A DNA stretch of 64,000 nt, from the NCBI RefSeq assembly GCF_014174405.1, contig NZ_JACEGA010000001.1, positions 3,450,501 through 3,514,500 on the forward strand, in the 5' to 3' direction. This DNA comes from Variimorphobacter saccharofermentans. Lineage in GTDB: Bacteria > Bacillota > Clostridia > Lachnospirales > Lachnospiraceae. Under the pieces are notes generated by a model. That model saw nothing but the letters and a program-made list of their open reading frames with translations. It had not been told where the DNA came from and ran no database searches. Positions 25,058-57,947 of this stretch are shown here, piece after piece (position 1 is the first letter of the stretch; each line of letters opens with the position of its first letter). A program made the translations under genes and the position numbers.

Positions 25058-26974
25058 TTAGATTGTACTACTCTCCTGAATTTGAGCCTCTTCTTCCTTC
25101 TCATCCTTCTCGGAGCTTTTTACTTCTTCCGTGATACCTTTCACTTCATTATAAATGCTCATAAACTCTTCACCTGTAATCGTTTCCTTGGTGATCAGAT
25201 GTTCTGCGATTTTATCCAAAACATCCCTGTTTTCAGCGAGAAGTTTCTCCGCTCTATCATAGCATTTTTTAAGTATCGTCATTACTTCCTGATCAATCTC
25301 AGCGGCTGTAGCGTCACCACAATTCAGTACCGGTCTACCGTCAAGATATTTACTTTCCACGGATTCCAGACCCATAAGTCCGAATTTCTCACTCATACCG
25401 TATTGGGTAACCATTGCTCTCGCAAGTGATGTAGCCTTCTCGATATCATTGGAAGCACCTGTCGTGATGGAATTAAAGACGATTTTCTCTGCGGCACGAC
25501 CGCCGTATAATGTTACAATTCTTGTCAGGATTTCCTCCTGACTCATCAGATACTTTTCTTCCTCCGGGACTTGCATAACATAACCCAGTGAACCCATGGT
25601 TCTTGGAACAATTGTAATCTTCTGAACCGGTTCGGAATGTTTCTCCAGAGCGGTTACTAACGCATGGCCTACCTCATGATATGCAACAATCCGTTTTTCG
25701 TCCTTGCCGAGGATACGATCCTTCTTTTCTTTTCCGGCGATTACAACCTCTACCGATTCAAATAAATCCTCCTGTGTAACCGCGGTTCGTCCTTGCTTTA
25801 CAGCAAGTATCGCTGCTTCATTTATCATATTAGCAAGATCGGATCCTACCGCTCCCGAGGTTGCCTTCGCTATCGCATCTAAATCAACAGAATCATGCAT
25901 TAGAACATTCTTTGCATGAACCTTCAGGATATCAACTCTACCCTTAAGATCCGGCTTATCAACAATGATACGACGATCAAAACGCCCAGGACGAAGTAAC
26001 GCTTTATCAAGCACTTCCGGTCGGTTAGTTGCCCCCAGGATAACCAATCCTTTAGAGGAATCAAATCCGTCCATGTTAGCAAGTAGTTGGTTTAAGGTCT
26101 GCTCCCGTTCATCGTTACCACCGCCGTAATGGGTATCTCTGCTCTTACCAATAGCGTCGATCTCATCTATAAAAATAATACAGGGTGCAGACTGCTGTGC
26201 CTGCTTAAATAAATCTCTTACTCTGGATGCACCGACACCTACAAACATCTCCACAAAATCAGAACCGGACAAAGAGAAAAAAGGAACCTTTGCTTCTCCG
26301 GCTACCGCCTTTGCCAACAAGGTCTTACCCGTACCGGGAGGACCAACCAGCAGAGCGCCTTTCGGGAGCTTTGCACCGATATGTGTATATTTCGCAGGAT
26401 TGTGCAGAAAGTCTACCAATTCTTTTAAGGATTCCTTCGCTTCCTCCTGTCCGGCAACATCCTTGAAGGTAACACCGGTCTGCTTTTCCACATATACCTT
26501 AGCATTGCTTTTTCCTACACCCATCACTCCGCCACTATTCTTTGATATGGTTCGAAATAAGAACCACATAACACCGTAAATTGCAATAAATGGTAATATT
26601 GATACAATAATCGTCTGAAGCAGATTTTCCTCTTCCGGGACCTCCCCAAATTCTACATCTGCATCCTTCAGTCTTTGTACCAAATCCAAATCTAAAATAT
26701 ATCCCGTATAATAAGTAATTTTAATTGGCTTATTTTCCTGTCCCTTTGGCGTAATTATTATTTTATTAGATTGTATCTCTACTTTTTGAACCTTACCATC
26801 ATCCAGCATATCCAAAAACTTATCATAAGATATTTCCTGATTAGTCCCTGACTCTATTTGCTGCGTTATAAAAGTGAACATGGACCAGATTGCTAAAGCG
26901 GATATCAACGTTATGATAATAATCGTTTTATTTGGGAAACCATTCTTATTGTTTTTTTGATTATTGTTATCCAC
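25058..26974 (-). CDS. ftsH: ATP-dependent membrane zinc metalloprotease FtsH
   Basis: A 638-residue FtsH with two membrane helices (about 17-37 and 120-140) around a short extracytoplasmic domain. The AAA+ module has Walker A GPPGTGKT at 211-218, Walker [13 protein letters not shown] and the second region of homology [19 protein letters not shown]. The zinc protease domain has HEVGH at 433-437. It forms a membrane hexamer that degrades misfolded membrane proteins and some regulators. The start is GTG after GGAGGATTTT. It stands alone, divergent from the flagellinolysin gene. Confidence 0.97.
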
Positions 26975-27308
26975 AAAATCCTCCTTACTACAGTAATTTC
27001 CTATATTTCATCGGAATGAAACACTCCTATACTGATATTCATTAATATATTATCAATAGGATGCATTACCCGATCAAAAAAATTGCTGGGTAACTTTGTC
27101 TGTTTTTACTCGCATACCTCATTATACTGATAGTCTTTCCATAAATCAATAAAATTGTTCTTAAAATTCTGTGATGAAATTGTGTGCTACTTTGAATTTT
27201 CACCTATAATAAAAAAATTTCAAATTTTAGTCAATAAGTACTATATGATTTGTCATTTTGTGTCGATAAACTTTTTAAGAGTATAAATATGAACAGGAGA
27301 TAAAAAAC
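26975..27308. other. Divergent intergenic region ftsH / flagellinolysin
   Basis: AT-rich region with the ftsH leader on one side and a SigD-like promoter for the flagellinolysin on the other. No gene or known RNA motif recognised. Confidence 0.5.
27242..27269 (+). promoter_or_regulatory. Possible SigD (sigma-28) promoter of the flagellinolysin gene
   Basis: TATA at 27242-27245, 16 bases, then GTCGATAA at 27262-27269. The -10 matches the flagellar consensus GCCGATAT/A closely and equals the -10 core before the main flagellin gene; the -35 is poorer. The start codon follows about 40 bases later with AGGAG. Confidence 0.5.
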
Positions 27309-29135
27309 ATGGTACTTGCTCATAATATGGAGGCTTTGAATGCCCTCCGATATTCCACTAATACCAGTAATAAGCTTAGAAAGTCATCGGAGCGTCTCTC
27401 AACCGGTTATAAAATCAATCGTTCGGCTGATAATGCTGCCGGTCTTCAAATATCAGAAAAAATGCGTAGCCAGATCAGAGGTCTCGAAGCTGCCTCCACT
27501 AATGCACAGGACGGGATCTCCTTCCTTCAGACTGCAGATGGCGCTCTTGGTGATGTTCAAGCATTAATTCAAAGAGGAAGAGAGCTATGTGTCCAAGCCT
27601 CCAATGATACCAATGTGGATAATGATCGAGAAGCGATACAGAGTGAAATTGATGCAATTAATGCAGAGATCAATCGTATTGCAGAGCAGACCGAATTTAA
27701 TACCATACGCTGTTTCCCTACCGGAGGTGCAACTCCTTCCAAGCTTGCTCCCATCAATAAGACAAGCTACTCGATTACCATCGACAGAGACTCAGATACA
27801 GTAATTGTAGAAGGATCTTCTTCCGATTCTGGCAGTACATTAGCAAATAAAATTGCAACCGAGTTGATTCCCAATGCTCTGACTCAGATATTAAATGCTT
27901 TTCCGGCGTTGGATACCATGGACAGGAACATTGATCTTAAGCTTGAGGTTACAAACATAGATGGTTCCTCCGGTACCTTGGCCTATGCTCAGATTTCATT
28001 TATTCCTACCACCGGTGATATCCTAACATATACTCTGCGGGTTGATTCATCGGATTTTACGGATGAAGATGCAGATGGCACGGGTTCTCGGGCAGAGATG
28101 TTGGAATCTACCATTGCACACGAAATGATGCATCACGTTATGTATAATGCGCTACGTGATGGTATGACCTCCTATGGTCCTGAAGATTATCCTGATTGGT
28201 TTGTTGAGGGGGCCGCTCAGGTAGCCGGCGGTGGTTTTACTACCGGATGGAATACCACCCTTACCGGAATAGAAAATGGCAGTTTGAGTAATGATGACAA
28301 GAACACTGCTGTAAGCAATTATTTACAGGCTCATACCCTCAATGATCGTCCCTATGGTCACGGATATCTTGCAACAATGTATCTTGGATATTTGGCAAGT
28401 GGATCCGGGGCTGTAACTGCATCAAGCATTTGTAACGGTTTAAATAAAATATTTGATTCTTTGAGAAATGGCAATACTCTAGATCAGGCTATAGCTGCTA
28501 ATACACCATTCGCTAACGCTACTGCTTTACAAAATGTCTTTTCATCCCCCACCAATGAGCTGGTCGCCTTCGTTCGCTCTCTGGCTGCCGCTAATGGTGC
28601 CGGATCTGCAATCGCACCTAGTCTGTCAACTAAGGGTACTGATATATTGGAAAATAGTACAACCGGCTTAAAAACCATGTTTGTCGTTACTGATGTACCG
28701 GACGTAACTCCTCCCGGAGGTGGCTCCACACCGGTTAATTTAAATCAAATATCCTTACAAATTGGCGCAAATTCAAATCAATCACTGCAATTTCAGTTAT
28801 ATGATATTTCCACCGGAATATTAGGACTCGATACCGTTACAGTAATTGATCATCTTTCTGCAAGCAATGGAATACATGCTTATGATGAAGCCTTGAACCG
28901 CATCTCCGGTGTTCGTTCCGCATATGGCGCCGTCCAGAACCGTTTAGAGCATGCCATCGCTAATGCAGAAAACACTGCTGAAAATCTTCAAGCGGCGGAA
29001 ACCCGCATTCGTGATGTTGATATGGCGAAGGAAATGGTTGAATACTCAATATCCAATATTCTGCTTCAGGCCGGACAAGCTATGATGACTCAGGCAAATC
29101 AAAGCAGACAGGGAATCCTAAGTTTGCTACAGTAA
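27309..29135 (+). CDS. Flagellin with inserted metallopeptidase domain (flagellinolysin)
   Basis: A 608-residue flagellin. Residues 1-140 are the conserved N-terminal D0/D1 helices (VLAHNMEALNALR, then STGYKINRSADNAAGLQISEKMR). Residues about 480-608 are the C-terminal D1/D0 part ending in QANQSRQGILSLLQ. Between them, where flagellins vary, sits a protease domain of about 290 residues with a zinc motif HEMMH (His271, Glu272, His275) and a likely third ligand Glu300 in WFVEGAA, as in collagenase-type gluzincins. Such flagellinolysins form proteolytic flagellar filaments. The domain ends in a Pro/Gly linker (PPGGGS near 468-473). It is on the opposite strand from the rest of the flagellar genes and 15 kb from the main flagellin. 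The residues needed for catalysis are intact. Confidence 0.93.
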   Translation: MVLAHNMEALNALRYSTNTSNKLRKSSERLSTGYKINRSADNAAGLQISEKMRSQIRGLEAASTNAQDGISFLQTADGALGDVQALIQRGRELCVQASNDTNVDNDREAIQSEIDAINAEINRIAEQTEFNTIRCFPTGGATPSKLAPINKTSYSITIDRDSDTVIVEGSSSDSGSTLANKIATELIPNALTQILNAFPALDTMDRNIDLKLEVTNIDGSSGTLAYAQISFIPTTGDILTYTLRVDSSDFTDEDADGTGSRAEMLESTIAHEMMHHVMYNALRDGMTSYGPEDYPDWFVEGAAQVAGGGFTTGWNTTLTGIENGSLSNDDKNTAVSNYLQAHTLNDRPYGHGYLATMYLGYLASGSGAVTASSICNGLNKIFDSLRNGNTLDQAIAANTPFANATALQNVFSSPTNELVAFVRSLAAANGAGSAIAPSLSTKGTDILENSTTGLKTMFVVTDVPDVTPPGGGSTPVNLNQISLQIGANSNQSLQFQLYDISTGILGLDTVTVIDHLSASNGIHAYDEALNRISGVRSAYGAVQNRLEHAIANAENTAENLQAAETRIRDVDMAKEMVEYSISNILLQAGQAMMTQANQSRQGILSLLQ

Positions 29136-29160: not shown

Positions 29161-29556
29161 TTGGGAAAAATATTACAGATATCCTGTCCGAAATGCAATT
29201 ACTTAAAGCAGATTCATGTCGGACATGGAATGGCGGATTTTCATTTAGAACAAATCATGACATATTTTACTGAAGAAGATAGCAAACGGATTATGAAATA
29301 TCAATCCGAAGGAATGATAGAACATTTCCATTATGACCGTAAGCTAAGTATCTGCCCCGGATGCAGACGTTTGGACTCAACTCCGACATTAGAGCTAATT
29401 CTTCATTCCGGGGATACCGTAAAGTTTCATGCAAAATGTACCTACTGCAATGAGGAACCTGAAATTCTACGTGATATATCGAATGAGAAATCAGTAACCT
29501 GCCCATATTGTAACAATGGTGAGCTATCAATTCAACAAGCAGGTTATTGGGATTAA
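29161..29556 (+). CDS. Four-CxxC zinc-ribbon protein downstream of flagellinolysin
   Basis: A 131-residue protein beginning at a TTG with GAGGTG five bases upstream, 25 bases after the flagellinolysin stop, with no terminator between, so it is very likely cotranscribed. It has four Cys-x2-Cys pairs (Cys9/12, 65/68, 93/96, 114/117), enough for two zinc ribbons, resembling CpXC-type domains. There is no signal peptide or membrane segment, so it should be cytoplasmic. No function is known to me for such proteins; a link to production, folding or zinc loading of the protease-flagellin is suggested only by position. Its 3' end meets lspA from the other strand with 5 bases between. Confidence 0.78.
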   Translation: MGKILQISCPKCNYLKQIHVGHGMADFHLEQIMTYFTEEDSKRIMKYQSEGMIEHFHYDRKLSICPGCRRLDSTPTLELILHSGDTVKFHAKCTYCNEEPEILRDISNEKSVTCPYCNNGELSIQQAGYWD

Positions 29557-29561
29557 TGCTA

Positions 29562-30041
29562 TTATGTCAGATCATTAGTATTAATCGTGCTATCCTTAGT
29601 GAATATCGAAGCTATAAATACCAATAACGAACCTATCATTATAGCAAAGTCAGCGATATTGAAAATCACATTCTTAAGCTTACCAAAATTAATGCTAAAA
29701 TAATCAACCACATAGCCACGATGAATACGGTCATAGACATTACTAATCGCCCCGCCAAGTAATAATGATAATCCGAATTTCATCAGCTTATTACCTTTTC
29801 TAGGTAATACAAGTGCAAAAAGGAGTAGAATCAGGCCCAGGAAAACACAGGATATGGTCTTGACTATCTCCTTTTTATTTTCCATAAAATTAAGAAATGC
29901 TCCCTTATTATAATGTTTACGTATGGTAACTTTTCCTTGAAGGATATCTTCGTGGTCCCCAAGCTTCTTATTTTCCTCTATATAGTTCTTTATCTTATAT
30001 TCCACTAATACAATCGCAAGAACAATCAAAATATACAGCAT
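29562..30041 (-). CDS. lspA: Lipoprotein signal peptidase (signal peptidase II)
   Basis: A 159-residue integral membrane aspartic protease that removes signal peptides from diacylglyceryl-modified prolipoproteins. It has four predicted helices. The catalytic Asp residues lie in NVYDRIHRGYVVDYF (the Asp of VVDY) and NIADFAI, and the family Asn is in NKGAFLNF. It is rather short and charged at the start. TAAGGAGG precedes the ATG. It is the last gene of the glycosyltransferase operon, 50 bases after the previous stop. Confidence 0.92.
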   Translation of the reverse strand: MLYILIVLAIVLVEYKIKNYIEENKKLGDHEDILQGKVTIRKHYNKGAFLNFMENKKEIVKTISCVFLGLILLLFALVLPRKGNKLMKFGLSLLLGGAISNVYDRIHRGYVVDYFSINFGKLKNVIFNIADFAIMIGSLLVFIASIFTKDSTINTNDLT

Positions 30042-36530: not shown

Positions 36531-37523
36531 TTATAACATTTGTAATTCTCGTAACAGTTGATCAACCTCTAACCAGTTATTATTGTTACCAGAGTTATAT
36601 TCAAAGCCTTCCTCAACTAATTTACCACCTGGTAGCAGAGACTTACTTATATCCATCCATTCGAAATTAGGGTAAATTATATAATGCTTATCATATTCAT
36701 ATGTCATTCTAGAATCATCCTTTGTTACCATGACTTCATGTAATTTCTCGCCCTCGCGAATACCTATTTCAACCAATTTCGAATTAGGAAGCATAGCTTT
36801 TGCCAAATCAACTATTTTAAAAGATGGAATTTTAGAAATATAGGTTTCACCTCCTTTAGCCTCTGCTAATGCCTTGAATACCAATTCAACTCCTTGTTCC
36901 AAAGTAATCCAAAAACGTGTCATTCTAAAATCAGTGATGGGAAGGGTAGTTTCCCCTCTCTCAATTAAGTTTTTAAACACAGGAATAATGGAGCCACGAC
37001 TCCCCGCAACATTACCGTACCGTACAATTGCAAATCTTGTACCCTTTTCCCCTGAATATGCATTAGCTGCAATAAAAAGCTTATCCGATACCAGTTTAGT
37101 TCCACCATATAAATTTATTGGATTTACAGCTTTATCTGTAGATAAAGCTATTACTTTTTTTACTCCTTTATCTAATGCAGCATCAATCACATTTTGTGCA
37201 CCATGAATATTCGTTTTAATTGCTTCAAATGGATTGTATTCACATGTAGGAACCTGTTTCATTGCGGCTGCATGAATTACATAATCCACTCCTTCAAATG
37301 CTCGATAAAGACGGTCTTTATCTCTGACATCACCAATGAAAAATCTAACCTTTGTCATATCCACTTTATTTGCATATTCAGTTTTCATTATACTCTGCTT
37401 AAACTCATCTCTGGAATATATAATAACCTTATTAGGATTATATTTCGCAAATATCATCTCTAAAAATTTCTTACCAAAAGAACCTGTTCCGCCAGTAATT
37501 AGTATGTTTTTTCCGTTTAACAT
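36531..37523 (-). CDS. pseB: UDP-N-acetylglucosamine 4,6-dehydratase (inverting)
   Basis: A 330-residue SDR enzyme starting MLNGKNILITGGTGSFGKKF; twelve upstream codons are open but GGAGGG lies seven bases before this ATG. It has the NAD(P) motif GGTGSFG, the AAMKQVP signature, the catalytic STDKAVNP and the YGGTK active-site Tyr-x3-Lys. It carries out 4,6-dehydration with C5 inversion of UDP-GlcNAc, the first step to pseudaminic acid. Last gene of the pse operon (pseI-pseH-pseC-pseG-pseB), just 58 bases after pseG. Confidence 0.93.
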   Translation of the reverse strand: MLNGKNILITGGTGSFGKKFLEMIFAKYNPNKVIIYSRDEFKQSIMKTEYANKVDMTKVRFFIGDVRDKDRLYRAFEGVDYVIHAAAMKQVPTCEYNPFEAIKTNIHGAQNVIDAALDKGVKKVIALSTDKAVNPINLYGGTKLVSDKLFIAANAYSGEKGTRFAIVRYGNVAGSRGSIIPVFKNLIERGETTLPITDFRMTRFWITLEQGVELVFKALAEAKGGETYISKIPSFKIVDLAKAMLPNSKLVEIGIREGEKLHEVMVTKDDSRMTYEYDKHYIIYPNFEWMDISKSLLPGGKLVEEGFEYNSGNNNNWLEVDQLLRELQML

Positions 37524-37581
37524 GAATGCGCCCTCCAAAATTCTTGTTACGTAATACAATTATATTATATATCGACATTAT

Positions 37582-38607
37582 TCATAATAATTTTAACACT
37601 TTTTCTGCTATTCTATAGCTTCCTCGTCCATCCGTTAAATTTTGCATATTTAATGAAAGTTCCTTGCGAAGTAAAGCATCCTTCATTAATGTACTTAATG
37701 AATCGTTAACTTTTCCTAAACATGCAGAAATATCTCCTCTAATATCACCAGAATAATAGATTATTTGCTCCTGATTAAATTTATTTACTATCCATAACTG
37801 ATTATCAGCGAATGAATAACTAATGGTAGGTAGACCGCAGGCACATAGTTCATATAACGTTGAACCTCCTGCAGAAATTGCTATATCACATTCCATCATT
37901 ATATCCGCCATATTGTTGATTGCCCGATGCAGAATTATATTGGGATATAACTTAGATAGTTTATTTAGATTTTCTACATTCTTATTCAATGCTCCAACTA
38001 TAATATGAAGATTTAGGCTGTCAAACTTACTAAACTTACGAATGTACGAAAGCAACTGACCTGCCATATTATAGCTATCGGATCCTCCCGTTGTTATTAA
38101 AATATTATTTACACTAGGATTTATCGTTCTAATTCGACCACTGAATTCCTCTCTTAACGGAACATAATCGCATCCTAAAAGTAATGTTGTATTTTCAGAA
38201 TAATAGCTCGAATATTGAATATCATAAACATAGATATTATAATTGATTAATATATCTGTTGGATATACAAATTGGTTAAGATCATCCAAATAAACAATCT
38301 TAACCAAATCTTTCGCCCTCTTCATATAATTATGTGTAACATAATATGAGTCAACTATTAATACCTGAATCTTGTATTTAATAATTGCCTTTTCTAATTC
38401 TAGTAATTCACCCTCCATATTAGTCCATTGAGTATTTAGACTAATACTAGGGAAATGTTCTCTACGAATTAGCTCCTTCCCATTATCATCAGCAGTTATA
38501 AAAACAATATCTTGTTCAAGTTTTTGAAGTGCTTTCGCAATTGATAAACACCTCATAATATGACCACTACCAATTTCGGAATTAGCATCCGCACGAAATG
38601 CTATCAC
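37582..38607 (-). CDS. pseG: UDP-2,4-diacetamido-2,4,6-trideoxy-beta-L-altropyranose hydrolase
   Basis: A 341-residue GT-B-fold hydrolase that releases UDP from the diacetamido sugar, the fourth step in pseudaminic acid synthesis. The catalytic His16 is in the family motif GSGHIMRCLSIAKAL. The C-terminal donor site has ITTGGSDSYNMA and CDIAISAGGSTLYELCACGLPTI. It starts at GTG and overlaps the pseC stop by one base; AAGGTG precedes it. Confidence 0.93.
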   Translation of the reverse strand: MIAFRADANSEIGSGHIMRCLSIAKALQKLEQDIVFITADDNGKELIRREHFPSISLNTQWTNMEGELLELEKAIIKYKIQVLIVDSYYVTHNYMKRAKDLVKIVYLDDLNQFVYPTDILINYNIYVYDIQYSSYYSENTTLLLGCDYVPLREEFSGRIRTINPSVNNILITTGGSDSYNMAGQLLSYIRKFSKFDSLNLHIIVGALNKNVENLNKLSKLYPNIILHRAINNMADIMMECDIAISAGGSTLYELCACGLPTISYSFADNQLWIVNKFNQEQIIYYSGDIRGDISACLGKVNDSLSTLMKDALLRKELSLNMQNLTDGRGSYRIAEKVLKLL

Positions 38608-39740
38608 TAATAATCACCTTCTACAATTTTTATCACTTGTTCAATTACATAATCTTGTTCTTCTTTAGAAAGCTTGGGAAAAATAGGCAAACTAATAAAC
38701 CTACTATAAGCCGTTTCCGCATTAGGGCATACAACATCCGAATATCCATGGCTACGATAATATGGTTGTGTATATACAGGTATATAATGTACATTAACTC
38801 CAATCCCTTTTGCAATCAATGCTTCCACCACTCTTCTGCGATCTCTATTCATCACTTGAATAACATATAAATGCCAACTATTGTAACAACCGTCTAGTTG
38901 ATATGGAATTAGAATATTCTCGTTATCTTTAAAAGCATTATTATACCTATCTACAATCTCTAATCTTCTAGAAATAAAGAAATCTAACTTTTTCATCTGA
39001 CTAATACCTAGGGCACATTGTATATCAGTCATTCGATAATTATATCCTAATTCCAATTGTTGATAATACCATGGTCCATCATTACAACTCATCAATTCTG
39101 GATTTCTGGTAATTCCATGACTCCTTATTATGGAAAGTTTTTGATATAGCTCTTTATTATTTGTTACAATCATGCCGCCTTCACCCGTTGTAATGTGTTT
39201 AACAGGATGGAAGCTAAATGTAGTCATATCTGAAATTGTTCCGATTCTTCTGCCTTTATACACGGCGCCTAAAGCATGTGCTGCATCTTCTATAACAATT
39301 AGATTGAATTCATCCGCTATTTTTTTAATCTCATCCATATCACATGGCTGTCCTGTAAAGTGAACTGCAATTATCGCTTTTGTCTTCGCTGTTATTTTCT
39401 TTCGAATGTCTTTGGGATCTATATTATATGTTTTCGGATCAATATCTGCAAACACTGGGGTAGCTCCGCAATATAAAACACTGTTTGCTGATGCCACAAA
39501 AGTTATCGGAGTTGTAATAACTTCATCACCTTTACTTATTCCAGCAGCAAGGCATGCAACGTGAAGTGCTGCAGTACCATTTGAAACAGCAACAGCATAT
39601 TTTGCTCCAACATATTTTGCTACACAATCTTCGAATTCTGATATTTTGGGCCCAGTTGTTAAATAATCTGCTTTTAGAGTATTAATCACTGCTTGTATAT
39701 CATCATCATCTATACTTTGCGTTCCATATGGAATATACAT
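38607..39740 (-). CDS. pseC: UDP-4-amino-4,6-dideoxy-N-acetyl-beta-L-altrosamine transaminase
   Basis: A 377-residue PLP aminotransferase of the DegT/DnrJ/EryC1 family and normal length. It has NGTAALHVACLAAGI for phosphate binding, IEDAAHALGAVYKG with the PLP-ring Asp, and the internal aldimine Lys in FSFHPVKHITTGEGGM. It makes the 4-amino sugar from the PseB product. GAGGAG precedes the ATG. It lies 25 bases after the pseH stop. Confidence 0.92.
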   Translation of the reverse strand: MYIPYGTQSIDDDDIQAVINTLKADYLTTGPKISEFEDCVAKYVGAKYAVAVSNGTAALHVACLAAGISKGDEVITTPITFVASANSVLYCGATPVFADIDPKTYNIDPKDIRKKITAKTKAIIAVHFTGQPCDMDEIKKIADEFNLIVIEDAAHALGAVYKGRRIGTISDMTTFSFHPVKHITTGEGGMIVTNNKELYQKLSIIRSHGITRNPELMSCNDGPWYYQQLELGYNYRMTDIQCALGISQMKKLDFFISRRLEIVDRYNNAFKDNENILIPYQLDGCYNSWHLYVIQVMNRDRRRVVEALIAKGIGVNVHYIPVYTQPYYRSHGYSDVVCPNAETAYSRFISLPIFPKLSKEEQDYVIEQVIKIVEGDY

Positions 39741-39765
39741 AAGTAATTCTCCTCATTAACTCTTG

Positions 39766-40206
39766 TTATATTTTTTTTGAATACTCAATGTACATTTGAT
39801 TGTAATTTAGACCTTCAAATATTTTTCTTGAAGGTACATTATCTACCTTAACCTGAGCATTAATTTGTGTAATATAGGGATACTCATCTCTTAATTTTTT
39901 TTCAACGAGTAATAAGATATTCTTTCCATGTCCTTTTCCCCTATGATCTTTACTAATGCTATAATTTATATATGCTATATTATTATTAATAGAAAGACGA
40001 ACTTGTCCAATTGGAATATTGTCCATATAATAAATAAACTGCAAAATATCTTCTGACCTGATCACGTTATTAAACCACTTCTCATGTGTCTCATATGGTA
40101 TAAAATCAGTTGAAAATGAATTTAACCTTGTTTCTTCATCATTTGCCCATTTGTATAGTAATTTTTTATCTTCCAATTGAACTGATTTTAAATAACAATC
40201 TTTCAC
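39766..40206 (-). CDS. pseH: Pseudaminic-pathway GNAT N-acetyltransferase
   Basis: A 146-residue GNAT acetyltransferase. The frame is open upstream inside pseI, but the start is set at GTG because AAGGAGAG sits seven bases before it and it overlaps the pseI stop in the usual four-base GTGA arrangement. The acetyl-CoA loop is at SKDHRGKGHGKNILLLVEK, and the C-terminal VDNVPSRKIFEGLNY is typical of the fold. It would N-acetylate the 4-amino group using acetyl-CoA, the third pathway step; assignment rests on position plus family. Confidence 0.87.
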   Translation of the reverse strand: MKDCYLKSVQLEDKKLLYKWANDEETRLNSFSTDFIPYETHEKWFNNVIRSEDILQFIYYMDNIPIGQVRLSINNNIAYINYSISKDHRGKGHGKNILLLVEKKLRDEYPYITQINAQVKVDNVPSRKIFEGLNYNQMYIEYSKKI

Positions 40207-41264
40207 ATTAACTCTCCTTGCTCTACTTGATCCAACCTTAATGGTGTACCTCTTTTTATGTCGCATAATGCCTTTTTCCCTAATACAGAATTGTAATACT
40301 TTGGCTCAAGACCATAACTTGGCCTAATGACTCTGATATTATTATTTGAAAAAACATCACCCGCTTTTATGTCGTCAACGGCAAATATGGAACGGCGAAA
40401 ATTTCGATTTGACATTTCACCACATGTAATTTCATAACTTATTTTTCCTAGGGCTTTTTCTGCATTACGAATATCATTAACCATATTTTTAAACTCTTCA
40501 GGTTCCATTGAAAAGGATGAATCCGGATTTACAATATTTCTATTTAAGCAAAAATGCTTTTCAATGATACAAGCACCCAATGCAACCGCAGTAATGGCAC
40601 CGATTGATCCCATTGAATGATCTGATAATCCTACCGGTACTTGAAACGTATTTTTCATATCTACTATTGTTCTTAAATTCATATCTTCTGATATTGCTGG
40701 ATAAGCACTAGAACATTTCAATATTGCAACTTGGTTATTATTTTGCATAGTCACTGTATTTAATGCATCCCAAATTTCTTCTTTACTTCCCATACCCGTC
40801 GACATAATAATAGGTTTACCCTTTGAAGCCACATATTCAATTAATGGTATATCAGTCAACTCAAATGAAGCAATTTTGTAAAACTCAATACCTATATCCT
40901 CTAAAAAATCTACTGAACTTTTATCGAAGGGGGTAGAAAAAAAATCAATTCCCACTTTGTCAGCTTCTGCTTTCAATTCATATTGCCATTCCCAAGGAGT
41001 ATAAGCTTTACCATATAGTTTATATAAGTTTTCTCCTGACCATGTTCCTTCATTTATTCGGAAATATTTGTTATCACAATCTATTGTTATCGTGTCAGGA
41101 GTATAGGTTTGCAATTTAATACAATCGGCTCCACATTCCTTTGCCATATGGATTATTTCTTTAGCTCGATTTATACTTCCAGCATGGTTACCCGACATCT
41201 CAGCAATGATATAAGTTGGATAACCCTCCCCAATAATTCTGTTTTTAATCTTTATATTTCTCAA
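40203..41264 (-). CDS. pseI: Pseudaminic acid synthase
   Basis: A 353-residue NeuB-family enzyme that condenses the PseG product with phosphoenolpyruvate to give pseudaminic acid. A TIM barrel fills residues 1-280 (IIAEMSGNHAGSINRAKEII, CIKLQTYTPDTIT, GLSDHSMGS, ACIIEKHFCLNR). A C-terminal SAF/antifreeze-like domain (about 290-350) has RRSIFAVDDIKAGDVFSNNNIRVIRP. The start is TTG after AAGGTG. NeuB, LegI and PseI are close relatives; the neighbouring pseB, C, G and H favour PseI. Confidence 0.92.
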   Translation of the reverse strand: MRNIKIKNRIIGEGYPTYIIAEMSGNHAGSINRAKEIIHMAKECGADCIKLQTYTPDTITIDCDNKYFRINEGTWSGENLYKLYGKAYTPWEWQYELKAEADKVGIDFFSTPFDKSSVDFLEDIGIEFYKIASFELTDIPLIEYVASKGKPIIMSTGMGSKEEIWDALNTVTMQNNNQVAILKCSSAYPAISEDMNLRTIVDMKNTFQVPVGLSDHSMGSIGAITAVALGACIIEKHFCLNRNIVNPDSSFSMEPEEFKNMVNDIRNAEKALGKISYEITCGEMSNRNFRRSIFAVDDIKAGDVFSNNNIRVIRPSYGLEPKYYNSVLGKKALCDIKRGTPLRLDQVEQGELM

Positions 41265-41294
41265 TATTACACCTTCACTCTAATTATGAATCTA

Positions 41295-42029
41295 TTACTT
41301 CAGCTTCTTCTGCTCTACATTCTTATTAATATCATATATTTCGGGATGTTTTTGCATTAATAATAATATATCATCTAAATAGAAATCATGAGAACCTTGA
41401 TATAAATAATCATATATTTTTGATATTGCTAGCCAATCTTCGTTTGTATCTAATGTCCATCTATATTTTGAATTATCAGTATCAGCTTTATAATAATATA
41501 TTTTACTTGATGTTTCATATATATATGGTGTTACATGTTCCCTTTGATACTTTTCTCTTGCTTTGTAAAATGCTTCTTCAAGTATATTATAAGAAAAAAT
41601 TTCCGTATCTAAACCTCTTGGATATGTTCTATTAACTATATCATTTCCAGCATTAGAAACGATATCATATTGATTCTTCTTATAAAAACTTATCATCTCA
41701 TCTAAAACCTTAGGATCATACAGCGGACAGTCCGATGTAATTCGTATTATCACATCAGCTTTATATTCTTTCGCTGCATAATAATAGCGGCTTAGAACAT
41801 CCTCTTCACTTCCTCTATAATAGTGTACGCCTAGCCGTACTGCTTCTTCCTCTATTTCATTATCCGCTTTATTTGTCGTAGTTGCTATGATGATATCATC
41901 AATTTGTTTACATTGCCTAATTCTATCGACATCATGCTCCAATATAGTTTTATCATATAGCTTTTTCAATACTTTGCCCGGTAACCTTGATGAACCCATT
42001 CTGGCTTGGATGATTACCATTATCTTCAT
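41295..42029 (-). CDS. SpsF-like cytidylyltransferase, probably serving as CMP-Pse synthetase
   Basis: A 244-residue nucleotidyltransferase beginning MKIMVIIQARMGSSRLPGKVLK, with ITSDCPLYDP as the metal-binding acidic motif. It belongs to the SpsF (spore coat polysaccharide) branch, not to typical PseF, which starts with an PARGGSKR-type motif. It is in the operon position where pseF would be and no other CMP-sugar synthetase is in the window. CMP activation of pseudaminic acid is therefore the likely role, inferred from context. AGAGGA precedes the ATG; 30 bases before pseI. Confidence 0.8.
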   Translation of the reverse strand: MKIMVIIQARMGSSRLPGKVLKKLYDKTILEHDVDRIRQCKQIDDIIIATTTNKADNEIEEEAVRLGVHYYRGSEEDVLSRYYYAAKEYKADVIIRITSDCPLYDPKVLDEMISFYKKNQYDIVSNAGNDIVNRTYPRGLDTEIFSYNILEEAFYKAREKYQREHVTPYIYETSSKIYYYKADTDNSKYRWTLDTNEDWLAISKIYDYLYQGSHDFYLDDILLLMQKHPEIYDINKNVEQKKLK

Positions 42030-42044
42030 ACAACATTCCTCTTT

Positions 42045-43880
42045 CTACATAGGTACCACTTGTTTAATTGCATCTTCAAGTTTTGGCTTTATAAAATCAG
42101 CTGCCTCAATAATAGCTTCGTTTATTTTCTTTGTTTTCATATAAGTAATCAATTTATTCTCAGAATAATCTTCTGACAACTTATTCATTTCCAAAATATC
42201 CTGCATAGAAACAGCTTTAACATAAATATCTATTAACTTATATAAAGATGATTTTTGAATAAATTGGTTATTTTTTCTTATTTTCGTAACATACTGCAAT
42301 TCTATCCCTGAATTGAATTTTTTATGATTTATTTCGTCTATAAGAATATTACAGTATTTAATCGATCCCTTCGCTTTCTTTATTATTTTCTCAATATTAT
42401 TATAGTTCTTATCTAAATAGTGTTTTACCGCATAAATACCTTCTTGATCGAATGTATTTATATTTATATTGGCAATAGTATTGTAATCAAATTCTTGATT
42501 ACAATACTTGACCAAAACATCTTTTAATGGCATAATAGTTGATCCATTAATTTTAGCTCCCTTTGTTTTTGCATCAATAATATTAATATGGGGTTTTAAA
42601 GCAATCAAGTCTTCATACCAAATCTTAAAACTTTTCCAATCATATCTTGAGCGTATCGGTTTACCTTCAATATCCTCTAATTCTATATCTCTATTAGTAT
42701 TGGGTGATATCTCTTCTCTGCCAGAATGACTCTTATTACCATCATAAGCCAAGTCTTGACCCACGAGAATAATATCAGTAAAACCTAATTCAACACATAC
42801 TAAGCAAGATAATGTTGCAACTGAAGAACTACTTAAGACCATAGGTGGCTTTTTATTAATATTTTCATATACTTGCTTTAAGAAATCTGTGCAATTACAA
42901 AATATCTTTTTACCTATATGTCTATCCAATATTTCATGGTTTGCTTCTATAAAACATAATAACGGTATTGTAACATCTGTACGGTTAGAGAAAAATTGCA
43001 CTGGTTTCATCGGATCTAATGTAACCACAAAATCTGGTTCAATGCCGTTTTCAAGTAAAAACTCCAGAATTCTGTCAACTGCAAATATTACTACTTTTCC
43101 CTTTGCTTGTCTTATATATTCTATTTGTTCCGATACGGATGGTCCTGCAGCAATTATCATCGCTGGTATATCTGTTGGAACAATGCTTTTTAGCTCATGT
43201 ATTGAAATACTATCACGTAGGTATCGAATATTATGTAAAGTATTTTCAATAAACCTTTTACCGAAAGCAATTTCCGTATTTATATTAATTTTAGCATTAT
43301 AATAGGAGTCTTTTAGCTCCTTAAAGAATGATACTCCACTTTCAGGAAATATCTTATCGTAAAATGGATGCGTACATATAATTTGTGTTGAGATATTGTT
43401 TATATCTAATACTACTCTAAGAGTGTTATGAAATTCGATATCATTTATTTTTTCAACAGTAAACGAAACTTGCATATTTGATAGTATATCAGTAATATCA
43501 TATTCTTCTATCACATGATAAAACACCTCTATACTAGGCTCATAAATAACTAAAATATCTTTGTCTCTTATCCTGTTTATTAAAGATCGTGCGAACTCAC
43601 CATTTCCAAATCCAAACATTGATATTATTGAACTTAAACTCTTAAGCTCAAATTGGTCCGCCCAAATATTCGCTTCATTAGAAGGACTATATATGCTGTT
43701 AAGTCGGTAATATTTTGTCCCTTTCTTTATATACAACGTCTTACTATTATCCTTAGTTATGACTGATTTAATTTCACTAATTTGATCAGAGGTATCTCTT
43801 GTTTCAGTTTCAATAAGTCTTTTATACATATATGGTCTATTTTTTTTTATACATTCCATATTATTTTCCAAATAGTTCAT
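42045..43880 (-). CDS. MAF-family flagellin glycosyltransferase
   Basis: A 611-residue motility-accessory-factor protein (6-hydroxymethylpterin-pyrophosphokinase-like, DUF115). The N-terminal domain (about 50-200) has FGFGNGEFARSLINR and LVIYEPSIEVFYHV. The central catalytic domain (about 230-420) has IPAMIIAAGPSVSEQIE, VFAVDRILEFLLENGIEPDFVVTLDP and ILVGQDLAYDG. The C-terminal part is helical. MAF proteins transfer pseudaminic or related nonulosonic acids from CMP donors to flagellin Ser/Thr before export. Genes for the donor follow on the same strand 15 bases later, and flagellin is just upstream. ACAGGAG precedes the ATG. Confidence 0.9.
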   Translation of the reverse strand: MNYLENNMECIKKNRPYMYKRLIETETRDTSDQISEIKSVITKDNSKTLYIKKGTKYYRLNSIYSPSNEANIWADQFELKSLSSIISMFGFGNGEFARSLINRIRDKDILVIYEPSIEVFYHVIEEYDITDILSNMQVSFTVEKINDIEFHNTLRVVLDINNISTQIICTHPFYDKIFPESGVSFFKELKDSYYNAKININTEIAFGKRFIENTLHNIRYLRDSISIHELKSIVPTDIPAMIIAAGPSVSEQIEYIRQAKGKVVIFAVDRILEFLLENGIEPDFVVTLDPMKPVQFFSNRTDVTIPLLCFIEANHEILDRHIGKKIFCNCTDFLKQVYENINKKPPMVLSSSSVATLSCLVCVELGFTDIILVGQDLAYDGNKSHSGREEISPNTNRDIELEDIEGKPIRSRYDWKSFKIWYEDLIALKPHINIIDAKTKGAKINGSTIMPLKDVLVKYCNQEFDYNTIANININTFDQEGIYAVKHYLDKNYNNIEKIIKKAKGSIKYCNILIDEINHKKFNSGIELQYVTKIRKNNQFIQKSSLYKLIDIYVKAVSMQDILEMNKLSEDYSENKLITYMKTKKINEAIIEAADFIKPKLEDAIKQVVPM

Positions 43881-45253: not shown

Positions 45254-45280
45254 ATATCGACAATAATTTATAAAACTTTA
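45254..45280 (-). promoter_or_regulatory. SigD (sigma-28) promoter of flagellin
   Basis: Read on the minus strand: TAAA, 15 bases, GTCGATAT. It is one base from the flagellar consensus TAAA-N15-GCCGATAT. It predicts a leader of roughly 125 bases. Confidence 0.85.
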
Positions 45281-49901: not shown

Positions 49902-51401
49902 CTATAGGAAATCCAGTAATGTATTCTGAACAACCCTGGAAGCAGCATTTAAGGAGGATTTATATATGGTATCAGCCACATTATATTTCACTATGGTATC
50001 AACCAAATCCACATCTTCATTCTGTGAGAGCAGCTCCTCGAAGTCAACCTTCTGGCTGGACAATCTGTTTTCCGTAAGTTCCAAACGAACATAACGGCTA
50101 CCCAGATCTGCCACTGCTGCATTCACTCGATCCTGTTCCTTTGCTGATACAGTCATTCCCTTTGCAAAAGCCTGCTGCATTACTTCTTTTTCGAGGCCTA
50201 ACTGAGTGTTCATCATTTCTTTTAATTTCTCGTAATACTCTCGATCTGCATCACTTAAGGAATTATCAGACAGACGTTTTTCTAATTCGGCAATGTTCTT
50301 CTCCGTTTCAACCACATCATTCACCGCATTAAGTATATCTTCAATCCTTCTTCCGATGGTAGGAGAGAAAGCATCCTTTGCTTCGGTATTAATCGTAAGC
50401 TTCTGATTGAAATTAACCTCATACTGGATTTTTTGTCCTTCTTTCATGTCTCTTTCAAATATAACAGGATCCTTTTCCGGAGTCAGGCTATCACTCATCG
50501 TACAATTAAAGAAATGCTCCGGTTTTAAATCTCCTCTCTGAAAGCCAGATTTATCATATTCTACTGATATCTTATCAGCAGTACGAATATCATTGTATAC
50601 GGACTCACCGAAGATGATCTCACCTGTCTCATAGATGTAATGAGCATCCGTGGCTGCCGGACTATAAGCGGAAGGATCATTTGCTGATATTGGAGCGATG
50701 GTTAAGCTCGGAAGACGTTCACTCATGGTTCCGTCCGGGTTCTTATCATACAGTCTTACAACAACCGGTTCTGTTTTACTTGTATTGTTATAAGCAAGCT
50801 GAATACGGTAATTACTAATCAACTCAGGAGCATCCGTTAGCGGGGAGGTTCCATCAATATCAGAACCAAGATATCTTCCGTTCACTTTATTCAGAATTTG
50901 AATCTGCTCCGCATCAAAATCTTCGGTAATAGAATAATTTAATGTTGGGGCATTCTCCATAAAGGTTAAGGAGCTGTCCGTCTTATAACCTGAAAATACA
51001 TATCTTCCCGCATAATTGGAGTTACCCTCCTGATAAATCTGTTCCTTCATCTGTTCCAGGTTCTGTACGATAAAGGAACGATCCTTCGGGGTTAAGGTGT
51101 CCGAACTACCCTGAACACAATAGGTATTGATCTGTTGAAGAATATCATTCACTGTATCAAGAGCACTCTCTGTGACCTCCATCCAAGACATTGCATCCGG
51201 AATGTTCTTCTCATGATATTGCTCTATCTCAGTCAGATTGGTTCTAAGCTTCAATGCACGAACAGTGATAATTGGATCATCGGATGGCTTCTGAATTTTT
51301 TTACCGGTGGCATATTGCTCCTCCAGCTTTGACATATGAAGCTTATTCCGATTAATATTGCTCATCATATTATTCGTCATCATCTTATTTGTAATTCTCA
51401 T
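49902..51401 (-). CDS. flgL: Flagellar hook-associated protein 3
   Basis: A 499-residue FlgL, larger than the usual ~300 because of an inserted variable region (about 150-330) between the conserved helical ends. The N-terminus RITNKMMTNNMMSNINRNKLHMSKLEEQYATGKKI is family-typical. The C-terminus VDLVDTIVKYNVADTIYKSSLNAASRVVQNTLLDFL is the flagellin-like D0 part. It joins hook and filament. GGAG precedes the ATG; 72 bases after the flgK stop. Confidence 0.93.
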   Translation of the reverse strand: MRITNKMMTNNMMSNINRNKLHMSKLEEQYATGKKIQKPSDDPIITVRALKLRTNLTEIEQYHEKNIPDAMSWMEVTESALDTVNDILQQINTYCVQGSSDTLTPKDRSFIVQNLEQMKEQIYQEGNSNYAGRYVFSGYKTDSSLTFMENAPTLNYSITEDFDAEQIQILNKVNGRYLGSDIDGTSPLTDAPELISNYRIQLAYNNTSKTEPVVVRLYDKNPDGTMSERLPSLTIAPISANDPSAYSPAATDAHYIYETGEIIFGESVYNDIRTADKISVEYDKSGFQRGDLKPEHFFNCTMSDSLTPEKDPVIFERDMKEGQKIQYEVNFNQKLTINTEAKDAFSPTIGRRIEDILNAVNDVVETEKNIAELEKRLSDNSLSDADREYYEKLKEMMNTQLGLEKEVMQQAFAKGMTVSAKEQDRVNAAVADLGSRYVRLELTENRLSSQKVDFEELLSQNEDVDLVDTIVKYNVADTIYKSSLNAASRVVQNTLLDFL

Positions 51402-56050: not shown

Positions 56051-57947
56051 AAAGGGGCTGTCGCACTAAGTAATTAGTGCGTAGCTCCTTTTTCAAATAA
56101 AATAAATCCCAAACTTCGAAAAGTAAGGGATTTATGGTAAAATATTAGTATGCTAATACAAAATAATTTACATAAAAATTATACTTCATTTCAGAGTGGA
56201 TATCAATTAAAACTTCCACTAAATCTCGAATGTATAATCTCAGAAAATGATTCCGTTCGATTACTAAGTCAGTTTGTGGAGGAAATGGATTTGACTGACT
56301 TATATTCTACTTACGAAAGAGTAAGAGAAAATTCTGTATCGCCTAGAACACTTCTAAAGATTGTACTTTATTCTTACATGAATGGTGATTACTCTTCACG
56401 CTCCATGGAGCTTAATTGTAAGAGGGATATTAATTTCATGTTTCTATTAGAAGGTGCAAATGCTCCTGACCATGCAACTTTTGCAAGATTTCGAAGTATT
56501 CATTTTGCACCCTGTTCAAAGCGTATCTTTGCTGAAATGTCTAACCGCCTTTATAATCTAGGTGAAATATCAGGTGAGACTATTTTTATCGATGGTACAA
56601 AGATAGAAGCAAGTTCCAATAAATATACATTTGTATGGAAAAAAGCTGTTTCAAAAAATCAGGCAAAGCTACTTCTAAAACTGGCGGATTTGATAGCTGA
56701 TTGCGAGCAACTGTATGATATAAAAATAGTTTATGGAAATACTGTAAAAATGAAGCACGTTAAGAAGCTGCGCAAGAATCTTTACACATTAAAAGAACGT
56801 GAGAACCTTGTCTTTGTTCATGGAATCGGCAAGAGAAAGTCCCCGCTTCAAAAAAGCATTGAAGCATTGGAGGAGTATCTGGCAAAGTTAAAAGAATACA
56901 ATCAAAAGATATATATTTGTGGTGAAAGAAATAGTTATTCTAAGACAGACCATGATGCTACCTTTATGAGAATGAAAGAAGATGCTATGAGAAATGGACA
57001 ATTAAAACCTGCGTACAATCTGCAGCATGGAGTTGATTCTGAATATATCACTTGGCTTACCATTGGGCCACAGCCAACAGATACAACAACTCTTATTCCA
57101 TTTTTAAAAGAGGCTGAGGAATACTTGAAATTTAAATATAAAAAAATCATAGCAGATGCTGGATATGAAAGTGAAGAAAACTACTTATTTATTGAAAGTA
57201 ATGGACAAACTTCATTTATAAAACCTGCTAATTATGAAATATCCAAAACACGAAAGTATCAACAAGATATAGGAAGAATCGAAAATATGGATTATGATAA
57301 AGAAGAGGATGCTTATATTTGTCGTAATGGAAAAAAATTAAACGTTGAATATATCAAACACTCCAAATCAAAAACAGGATATATGAGCGAAAAAACAATT
57401 TATACAAGTAGTGATTGTAGTGGATGTTCCTACAAAAACGATTGTATCAAAGGAAATAATTGCAAAACACCTTTTGAAGAACGAAATAAAGTTCTTCAAG
57501 TAGCAAAAAAGTTTATAAAACAAAGGCAAGAAGGTCTTGAGCGAATACTTTCAGAGGAAGGGATACTGCTAAGAATGAATCGTAGTATACAAGCAGAAGG
57601 TTCCTTTGGAGATTTAAAGCAAGACATGCAATTCAGACGTTATCTAAGTAAAGGCACATCAAATGTTCTGGCAGAAAGTGTGCTTCTTGCTATGGCGAGA
57701 AACATAAACAAACTACATAATAAGATTCAAAATGGAAAAACTGGAATGCATTTATTCCCAATTAAAAGTGCATAGATTTTAAAATGTCTAAATAAAATTT
57801 CAAGGCCTATTATTAGGTCTATTAAATTACATCATTTTTAAGAAACATAGATGGAACTAAGATGAAACAGATAATAAAAGGCTATTTTCAGGAAAAAGGA
57901 AGCTGTCGCTTCACGATTATTTAATCGTTAAAGCGACAGCCCCCTTT
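56051..57947 (+). mobile_element. IS1182-type insertion sequence (intact)
   Basis: One transposase gene framed by inverted ends. The left end reads AAAGGGGCTGTCGC (from 56051) and the right end, on the other strand, AAAGGGGGCTGTCGC (to 57947). Each end carries a hairpin just inside: CGCACTAA-GTAA-TTAGTGCG on the left, and GCTGTCGCTT...AAGCGACAGC around an ACGATT/AATCGT stem on the right. The exact boundary and target duplication cannot be fixed from one copy; no clear short duplication was seen. It lies between ctpA and the flgM promoter. Confidence 0.85.
56150..57775 (+). CDS. IS1182-family transposase
   Basis: A 541-residue DDE transposase without internal stops or frameshift. The N-terminal domain (about 20-110) is DUF772-like (YSTYERVRENSVSPRTLLKIVLYSYMNG, FARFRSIHFAP). 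Catalytic residues can be read: first Asp in IFIDGTKIEA (about 147), second Asp in KIIADAGYESEENY, and Glu in IQAEGSFGDLKQDMQFRRY. A zinc-like Cys cluster (CSGCSYKNDCIKGNNC) precedes the Glu. The start has only a weak ribosome site, as is common for IS genes. The element looks capable of moving, if it is expressed. Confidence 0.93.
   Translation: MLIQNNLHKNYTSFQSGYQLKLPLNLECIISENDSVRLLSQFVEEMDLTDLYSTYERVRENSVSPRTLLKIVLYSYMNGDYSSRSMELNCKRDINFMFLLEGANAPDHATFARFRSIHFAPCSKRIFAEMSNRLYNLGEISGETIFIDGTKIEASSNKYTFVWKKAVSKNQAKLLLKLADLIADCEQLYDIKIVYGNTVKMKHVKKLRKNLYTLKERENLVFVHGIGKRKSPLQKSIEALEEYLAKLKEYNQKIYICGERNSYSKTDHDATFMRMKEDAMRNGQLKPAYNLQHGVDSEYITWLTIGPQPTDTTTLIPFLKEAEEYLKFKYKKIIADAGYESEENYLFIESNGQTSFIKPANYEISKTRKYQQDIGRIENMDYDKEEDAYICRNGKKLNVEYIKHSKSKTGYMSEKTIYTSSDCSGCSYKNDCIKGNNCKTPFEERNKVLQVAKKFIKQRQEGLERILSEEGILLRMNRSIQAEGSFGDLKQDMQFRRYLSKGTSNVLAESVLLAMARNINKLHNKIQNGKTGMHLFPIKSA

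Follow-up and report, generated by a model that had tools for sequence, protein, structure and literature searches.

A divergent flagellinolysin of Variimorphobacter saccharofermentans and a conserved zinc-ribbon partner that may serve as its escort or guard

The window analysed here, a stretch of 64,000 nucleotides of the Variimorphobacter saccharofermentans genome, contains on its forward strand a flagellin gene with a metallopeptidase insert and, directly behind it, a small gene for a cysteine-rich protein (Table 1). As the original prediction had it, the pair lies in a divergent position, preceded on the reverse strand by a gene that we read as ftsH and followed, again on the reverse strand, by one that we read as lspA-like. 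Among 19 loci compared from the same genus (three further genomes of the genus with strong matches stand outside this count), 11 have the lspA-like gene and then ftsH on the same strand, about 130-570 bases apart, leaving no room for the pair; in the remaining eight, ftsH was not seen within the short stretch examined. We infer that the peptidase-flagellin and the small gene were acquired as a two-gene cassette at the ftsH/lspA site.

Table 1. Features of the peptidase-flagellin locus and of the plain flagellin in the window.
Feature	Position	Strand	Evidence or remark
ftsH (own reading), flank of the two-gene cassette	25058..26974	-	ORF list
SigD-like -10 box GTCGATAA	27262..27269	+	ends 40 bases upstream of the peptidase-flagellin ATG
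Peptidase-flagellin (flagellinolysin, type-2 insert), 608 aa, ATG start	27309..29135	+	ORF, profile matches, domain tree
Flagellin N-terminal D0/D1 part, aa 1-136	27309..27716	+	Flagellin_N (PF00669) 5-136, 1.3e-40; model helices; filament-subunit match
Metallopeptidase insert, aa 140-478 as delimited here	27726..28742	+	NF033876 score; tree placement
HEMMH zinc-binding/catalytic motif (predicted), aa 271-275	28119..28133	+	H271, E272, H275 invariant in alignment A7
Glu300 in WFVEG, predicted third zinc ligand	28206..28208	+	invariant in alignment A7
Flagellin C-terminal D1/D0 part, aa 523-608	28875..29132	+	Flagellin_C (PF00700) 523-607, 6.9e-24
Zinc-ribbon partner, 131 aa, eight Cys, GYWD end, TTG start	29161..29556	+	25 bases past the flagellin stop
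lspA-like gene (own reading), other flank	29562..30041	-	ORF list, same-genus loci
Plain flagellin, 272 aa	44303..45121	-	Flagellin_N match
SigD-like box GTCGATAT of the 272-aa plain flagellin	45254-45261		better -35: TAAA, 15 bases

The SigD-like promoter that had been predicted for the peptidase-flagellin stands in part: the -10 box GTCGATAA is found upstream of the ATG, but its -35 is weak (TATA at 27242-27245, spacing 16). A gene that we read as flgM-like also has a SigD-like box, GCCGATAA; all these boxes were called against what we take to be the SigD consensus. Across the 54 loci in which the small gene adjoins a peptidase-flagellin (see below), 15 have a SigD-like box close to where the pair begins (mean 1.9 and largest value 8 in 200 shuffles) and one has such a box between the two genes, the intergenic region being shorter than the upstream one. 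Co-transcription of the two window genes is presumed. The plain flagellin expected in the same cell turned out to be two, as Flagellin_N has three more matches in the genome, namely the 272-aa flagellin in the window, a 515-aa flagellin outside it, and a gene at 49902-51401 that we read as FlgL-like. Beside the flagellin cluster, we read the genes at 36531-43880 as encoding nonulosonic (pseudaminic-type) acid synthesis and a Maf-like protein, which suggests that the flagellin is glycosylated, and an ORF that we read as transposase-like (56150-57775, forward strand) adjoins the flagellar gene cluster on the reverse strand.

The 608-aa protein has the architecture claimed for it, a flagellin with a metallopeptidase middle carrying HEMMH and Glu300 in WFVEG, and its outer flagellin parts are intact, both Pfam matches on either side of the insert being over their cut-offs. 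The flagellin ends also match filament subunits in fold searches with the whole model, in each of which the best 50 matches listed were flagellins, the insert having been compared only within that model. The secondary structure predicted by the model places HEMMH within helix 262-281 and E300 within helix 296-307. The catalytic residues are invariant across the 33 full-length proteins chosen for alignment A7 (29 of the divergent type 2 described below and four canonical), and HExxH...WxxEG is present in 77 of 80 related rows and is therefore not a product of chance; among the three rows without HExxH (L061, L063, L130), L063 is cut by a contig end. The two profile comparisons proposed with the original prediction came out differently. 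In a whole-protein search the window protein scored 241.8 bits against the NCBIfam flagellinolysin family NF033876 (cut-off 205; 165.7 bits for the insert nearly alone, aa 140-477), but Peptidase_M9 (PF01752) gave no match at E<=1 for the whole protein or at E<=0.01 for the insert. Weak M9 matches were seen in the canonical proteins L029 and L030 (about 2e-4, below cut-off) and in one of the 15 rows of alignment A6. The window gene almost certainly encodes a flagellinolysin, and because its NF033876 score is over the cut-off, what we chiefly report is one more member of an already published family.

Cysteines occur at aa 94, 135 and 375 of the protein, two of the three in or near the filament-forming part, and to our knowledge cysteine is seldom found in flagellins. 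These residues, together with the two plain flagellins of the genome and the three of 80 rows without HExxH, would fit a peptidase-flagellin that is inactive here or kept out of filaments. We hold this to be very improbable, since the flagellin ends and the motif are intact and the motif spacing equals that of the active Clostridium haemolyticum enzyme; peptidase activity and filament assembly are what we would expect from the sequence.

An early comparison with a few relatives placed the insert nearest to the flagellin L033 (128 bits) and to L031, a protein without flagellin ends (101-117 bits), against 31-43 bits with canonical inserts. Scanning a genome collection (84,980 species) with three queries, the window insert, L033 and L031, yielded 56 loci, 40 of which are labelled Lachnospiraceae or Butyrivibrio; L073, a copy of L033, carries the latter label. 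In a tree of 77 domains, made by a quick method with a midpoint root and several long branches including L007 and L005, 11 canonical-type rows split from 66 type-2 rows (SH-aLRT 99); L072 (a near copy of L068), L073 (the same as L033) and L063 (partial) had been left out beforehand. The rows nearest to the window insert are L043, L042, L041, L131 and L044, and the two groups remain related (hhalign 99.4% over 218 columns). By its sequence, the window insert is a member of a divergent subfamily, type 2, most proteins of which bear Lachnospiraceae labels. The NF033876 cut-off is passed by three of 61 relatives, and L033 falls below it with 158.4 bits; eight of the 33 proteins in A7 reach E<=1e-60, about that cut-off, a count not split by type, which places at most eight of the 29 type-2 proteins there. 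This suggests that the present family model misses some of the enzymatic flagellins of Lachnospiraceae.

Related domains also occur in 12 proteins without flagellin ends (L031, L083, L087, L089, L092-L094, L114, L117, L118, L120 and L123; L083 is labelled Treponema), all on the type-2 side of the tree, where the non-flagellin label needs three changes. These hosts bear on the origin of the inserts. At the other extreme of size are seven giant flagellins of 1206-1660 aa (L062, L068, L069, L070, L072, L074, L076), which have the same peptidase domain and much extra sequence between the ends, all seven with a zinc-ribbon gene directly upstream. In L042/L133, L130 and L061, the peptidase-flagellin frame is interrupted or without its HExxH part, yet the partner gene adjoins it; such broken frames could be due to decay, phase variation or sequencing error.

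The family of the small partner is marked by four CxxC pairs, an MG start and a GxWD end, and its members are 20-34% identical to the one in the window. An alignment (A5) of 23 partners, chosen from the 43 known at that stage, has the MG start, the GxWD end and six cysteines invariant, with two more cysteines nearly so; its 13 invariant columns hold for this selection only, because L061, with a different end, and the 106-aa variants with their FYD end were excluded. The AlphaFold model of the partner (mean pLDDT 94.0, pTM 0.84) is composed of strands and short helices, and eight cysteines in four CxxC pairs probably amount to two zinc sites. The partner misses the FmdB/Zn_ribbon_8 cut-offs (27.0 against 34.4 for PF09723, 26.0 against 31.3 for TIGR02605), and the Pfam and NCBIfam sequence scans gave no match from it to the FliS and FliW families. 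Cousin small proteins with CxxC pairs (L124-L129, five of the six ending in WD) sit in stretches without flagellin, and the fold is therefore not specific to flagellin export. One cousin (L128) lies near a toxin-antitoxin-like pair and another (L124) near what we read as a possible secreted-effector region.

A profile of the small gene located it beside most peptidase-flagellins. Our comparison rests on a table of 80 rows, of which 68 match flagellin at the N-terminal end, the C-terminal end or both (six of these with only one flagellin end seen) and 12 are non-flagellin hosts; L095 and L096 (24-27 bits), the repeats L133 (=L042), L139/L140 (genomes of L029/L032) and L147 (=L030), and L146 had been dropped. 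The partner adjoins the peptidase-flagellin on the same strand in 54 of the 68 flagellin-hosted rows, seven times as the 106-aa variant, or in 53 of 67 when L033 and L073, which look like one record, are counted once. This compares with 0/12 non-flagellin hosts, an absence that is weakly tested because four of them (L031, L114, L117, L118) show only 0 to 441 bases upstream. The small partner gene of the original prediction is thus real and conserved, and the prediction's overall interpretation, a flagellinolysin with a partner gene in a cell that also has plain flagellin, is supported. The start-to-end distance between the two genes has a median of 37 (range -165 to 178). Beside type-2 flagellins, the partner is found in 47 of 57 rows, 32 times upstream and 15 times downstream, while seven of the 11 canonical-type rows, all of one genus, have the 106-aa variant downstream and the other four have none. 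Of the 10 type-2 flagellin rows without a visible partner, two (L055, L113) break off on the 3' side of the flagellin. Given these 10 and the four canonical-type rows, the partner is not indispensable.

The rows that lack it, and the published flagellinolysin contexts, whose available portions do not mention a partner, would suit an ordinary flagellinolysin with a hitchhiker, adjacent merely by common descent of one locus. We consider this explanation improbable, as the position of the partner varies within type 2 and differs by lineage: on the domain tree the upstream and downstream labels need seven changes each, and the starred branches force at least three and four position changes, losses included. 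It is likewise at odds with the absence of the partner at the related domains of non-flagellin proteins, with the 20-34% identity of partners to the one in the window, and with the fact that no other neighbour family is kept as well. When 295 neighbouring ORFs were clustered from the 37 type-2 loci with 2 kb of sequence on either side, the partner family ranked first (present at 24 loci and adjacent at all 24), and the second family, other flagellins, occurred at 16 loci and was adjacent in two. L082 and four other loci have a large ORF (median 1016 aa) adjacent on the same strand, possibly a second, lineage-specific neighbour.

Our survey of 299 genomes of the window's family gave a similar picture. 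The partner, counted at E<1e-15, is present in 10 of them (of 46 matching at E<=1e-3, the others being partial matches or the cousin family); eight of the 10 have the peptidase domain, and the two genes are adjacent in all eight. The domain itself was found at E<=1e-3 in 13 genomes. The five without the partner are G533, G521 and G726, with non-flagellin hosts, and G711 and G709, with flagellin hosts, the locus of G711 ending inside the gene. Conversely, the partner occurs without the domain in G677, where a contig end lies about 100 bases away, and in G489, where the partner-like protein is unlinked, degenerate and without the WD end, beside ABC-transporter-like genes. A Fisher test on 8/2/2/287, with G709, G521 and G726 left out and relatedness ignored, gives 1.4e-12. 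As Flagellin_N matches, those of FlgL-like genes among them, are found in 156 of the 299 genomes and the partner in only 10, the partner is not a general flagellin companion; the counts indicate that its association is with the peptidase-flagellin, not with flagellin or peptidase alone. Across 40 loci, distances between partners correlate with those between peptidase domains (Mantel r 0.65, and 0.51 with flagellin-end distances removed; 0/999 permutations as high) and follow the flagellin ends, with the domain removed, at 0.24 (0/999 permutations as high), values that, like our other association tests, are inflated by relatedness of the loci. We regard it as very probable that the partner is functionally tied to the peptidase-flagellin.

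What the tie consists of is less certain. Zinc ribbons often bind nucleic acid, and the main rival explanation is that the partner is a regulator that binds flagellin mRNA or DNA and tunes the level of the peptidase-flagellin relative to the plain flagellin. Many nucleic-acid-binding chains do have zinc fingers or ribbons that the partner profile matches, such matches being possible for any cysteine-rich profile, and unlinked cousins exist; but partner distances correlate better with the domain than with the flagellin ends, and the partner is absent from most genomes that have flagellin-type genes, so that a regulator seems to us rather unlikely. The conserved or nearly conserved cysteines could instead point to a role in zinc supply to the peptidase or in zinc sensing on its behalf. 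Flagellins are exported in an unfolded state, however, so that zinc would be bound by the peptidase outside the cell, and the non-flagellin hosts of related zinc peptidases have no partner, which makes this role as improbable as hitchhiking.

The explanation that we favour, and hold to be reasonably probable as a whole, is that of a proteolytic filament subunit with a dedicated cytoplasmic escort or guard. The flagellin would be incorporated as a subunit, probably a minor one, of the filament, its surface-exposed middle carrying the gluzincin-type zinc metallopeptidase, and the filament would thereby cut peptides near the cell. It would be encoded as a unit with the small double zinc-ribbon protein. 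The peptidase would have to remain unfolded or idle while in the cytoplasm and then pass through the narrow flagellar export channel, and the partner may bind the flagellin before export and prevent early folding, zinc loading or self-cleavage. Because this need seems to arise only for a peptidase within an exported flagellin, the partner may well act in the cytoplasm as escort or guard of this flagellin alone, a role for which we see nearly even chances. Somewhat more tentatively, in Lachnospiraceae and one other clostridial genus the zinc-ribbon protein might be a substrate-specific export helper that keeps its flagellin idle up to the moment of export and travels with it as a two-gene cassette. 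If so, this would be a dedicated helper for the flagellar export of an enzyme. The safe making and export of an enzyme-bearing flagellin is unaddressed in the available portions of the flagellinolysin papers, and the conserved partner makes the question directly testable.

Flagellinolysin as a kind is already known; what goes beyond it here is the divergent branch and the conserved zinc-ribbon partner, the latter undescribed in the literature searched. The open-licence literature, as represented by listings, abstract starts and portions of main texts, yielded no mention of a partner of flagellinolysin, nor were 'proteolytic flagellin' and 'zinc ribbon' found together in it. According to the available text on FliA(H) of C. 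haemolyticum (Eckhard et al. 2017, PMC5595980), purified filaments are proteolytic and flagellinolysin is part of the filament. Like the window protein, FliA(H) has flagellin ends and HExxH with a distal Glu, and its spacing from His233 to Glu262 (29 residues, with Ala265 at E+3) is the same as that from His271 to Glu300 in the window protein, which has Ala303 at E+3 (PMC5595980, same portions). The window insert differs in standing on the branch apart from the 11 canonical-type flagellinolysin rows, and the window locus in having a zinc-ribbon partner, which the available main text does not mention for the C. haemolyticum system (PMC5595980). HgrFlaMP of Hylemonella gracilis has the same architecture as the window protein; its gene neighbours are given as a NUDIX hydrolase, a MarR regulator 'and others', unlike the zinc-ribbon partner of the window, and neither 'zinc ribbon' nor 'operon' was found in that text (PMC7643111). 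When produced recombinantly in Escherichia coli, the H. gracilis protein ended up in inclusion bodies (PMC7643111), and a partner of the kind described here might bear on this. The clostridial collagenases of the Peptidase_M9 family share the gluzincin motif with the window insert, although the window protein itself has no M9 match. FliS and FliW are flagellin chaperones, and the role that we propose for the partner, that of a small cytoplasmic flagellin helper, resembles theirs. Unlike them, the partner is cysteine-rich and predicted to consist of strands and short helices.
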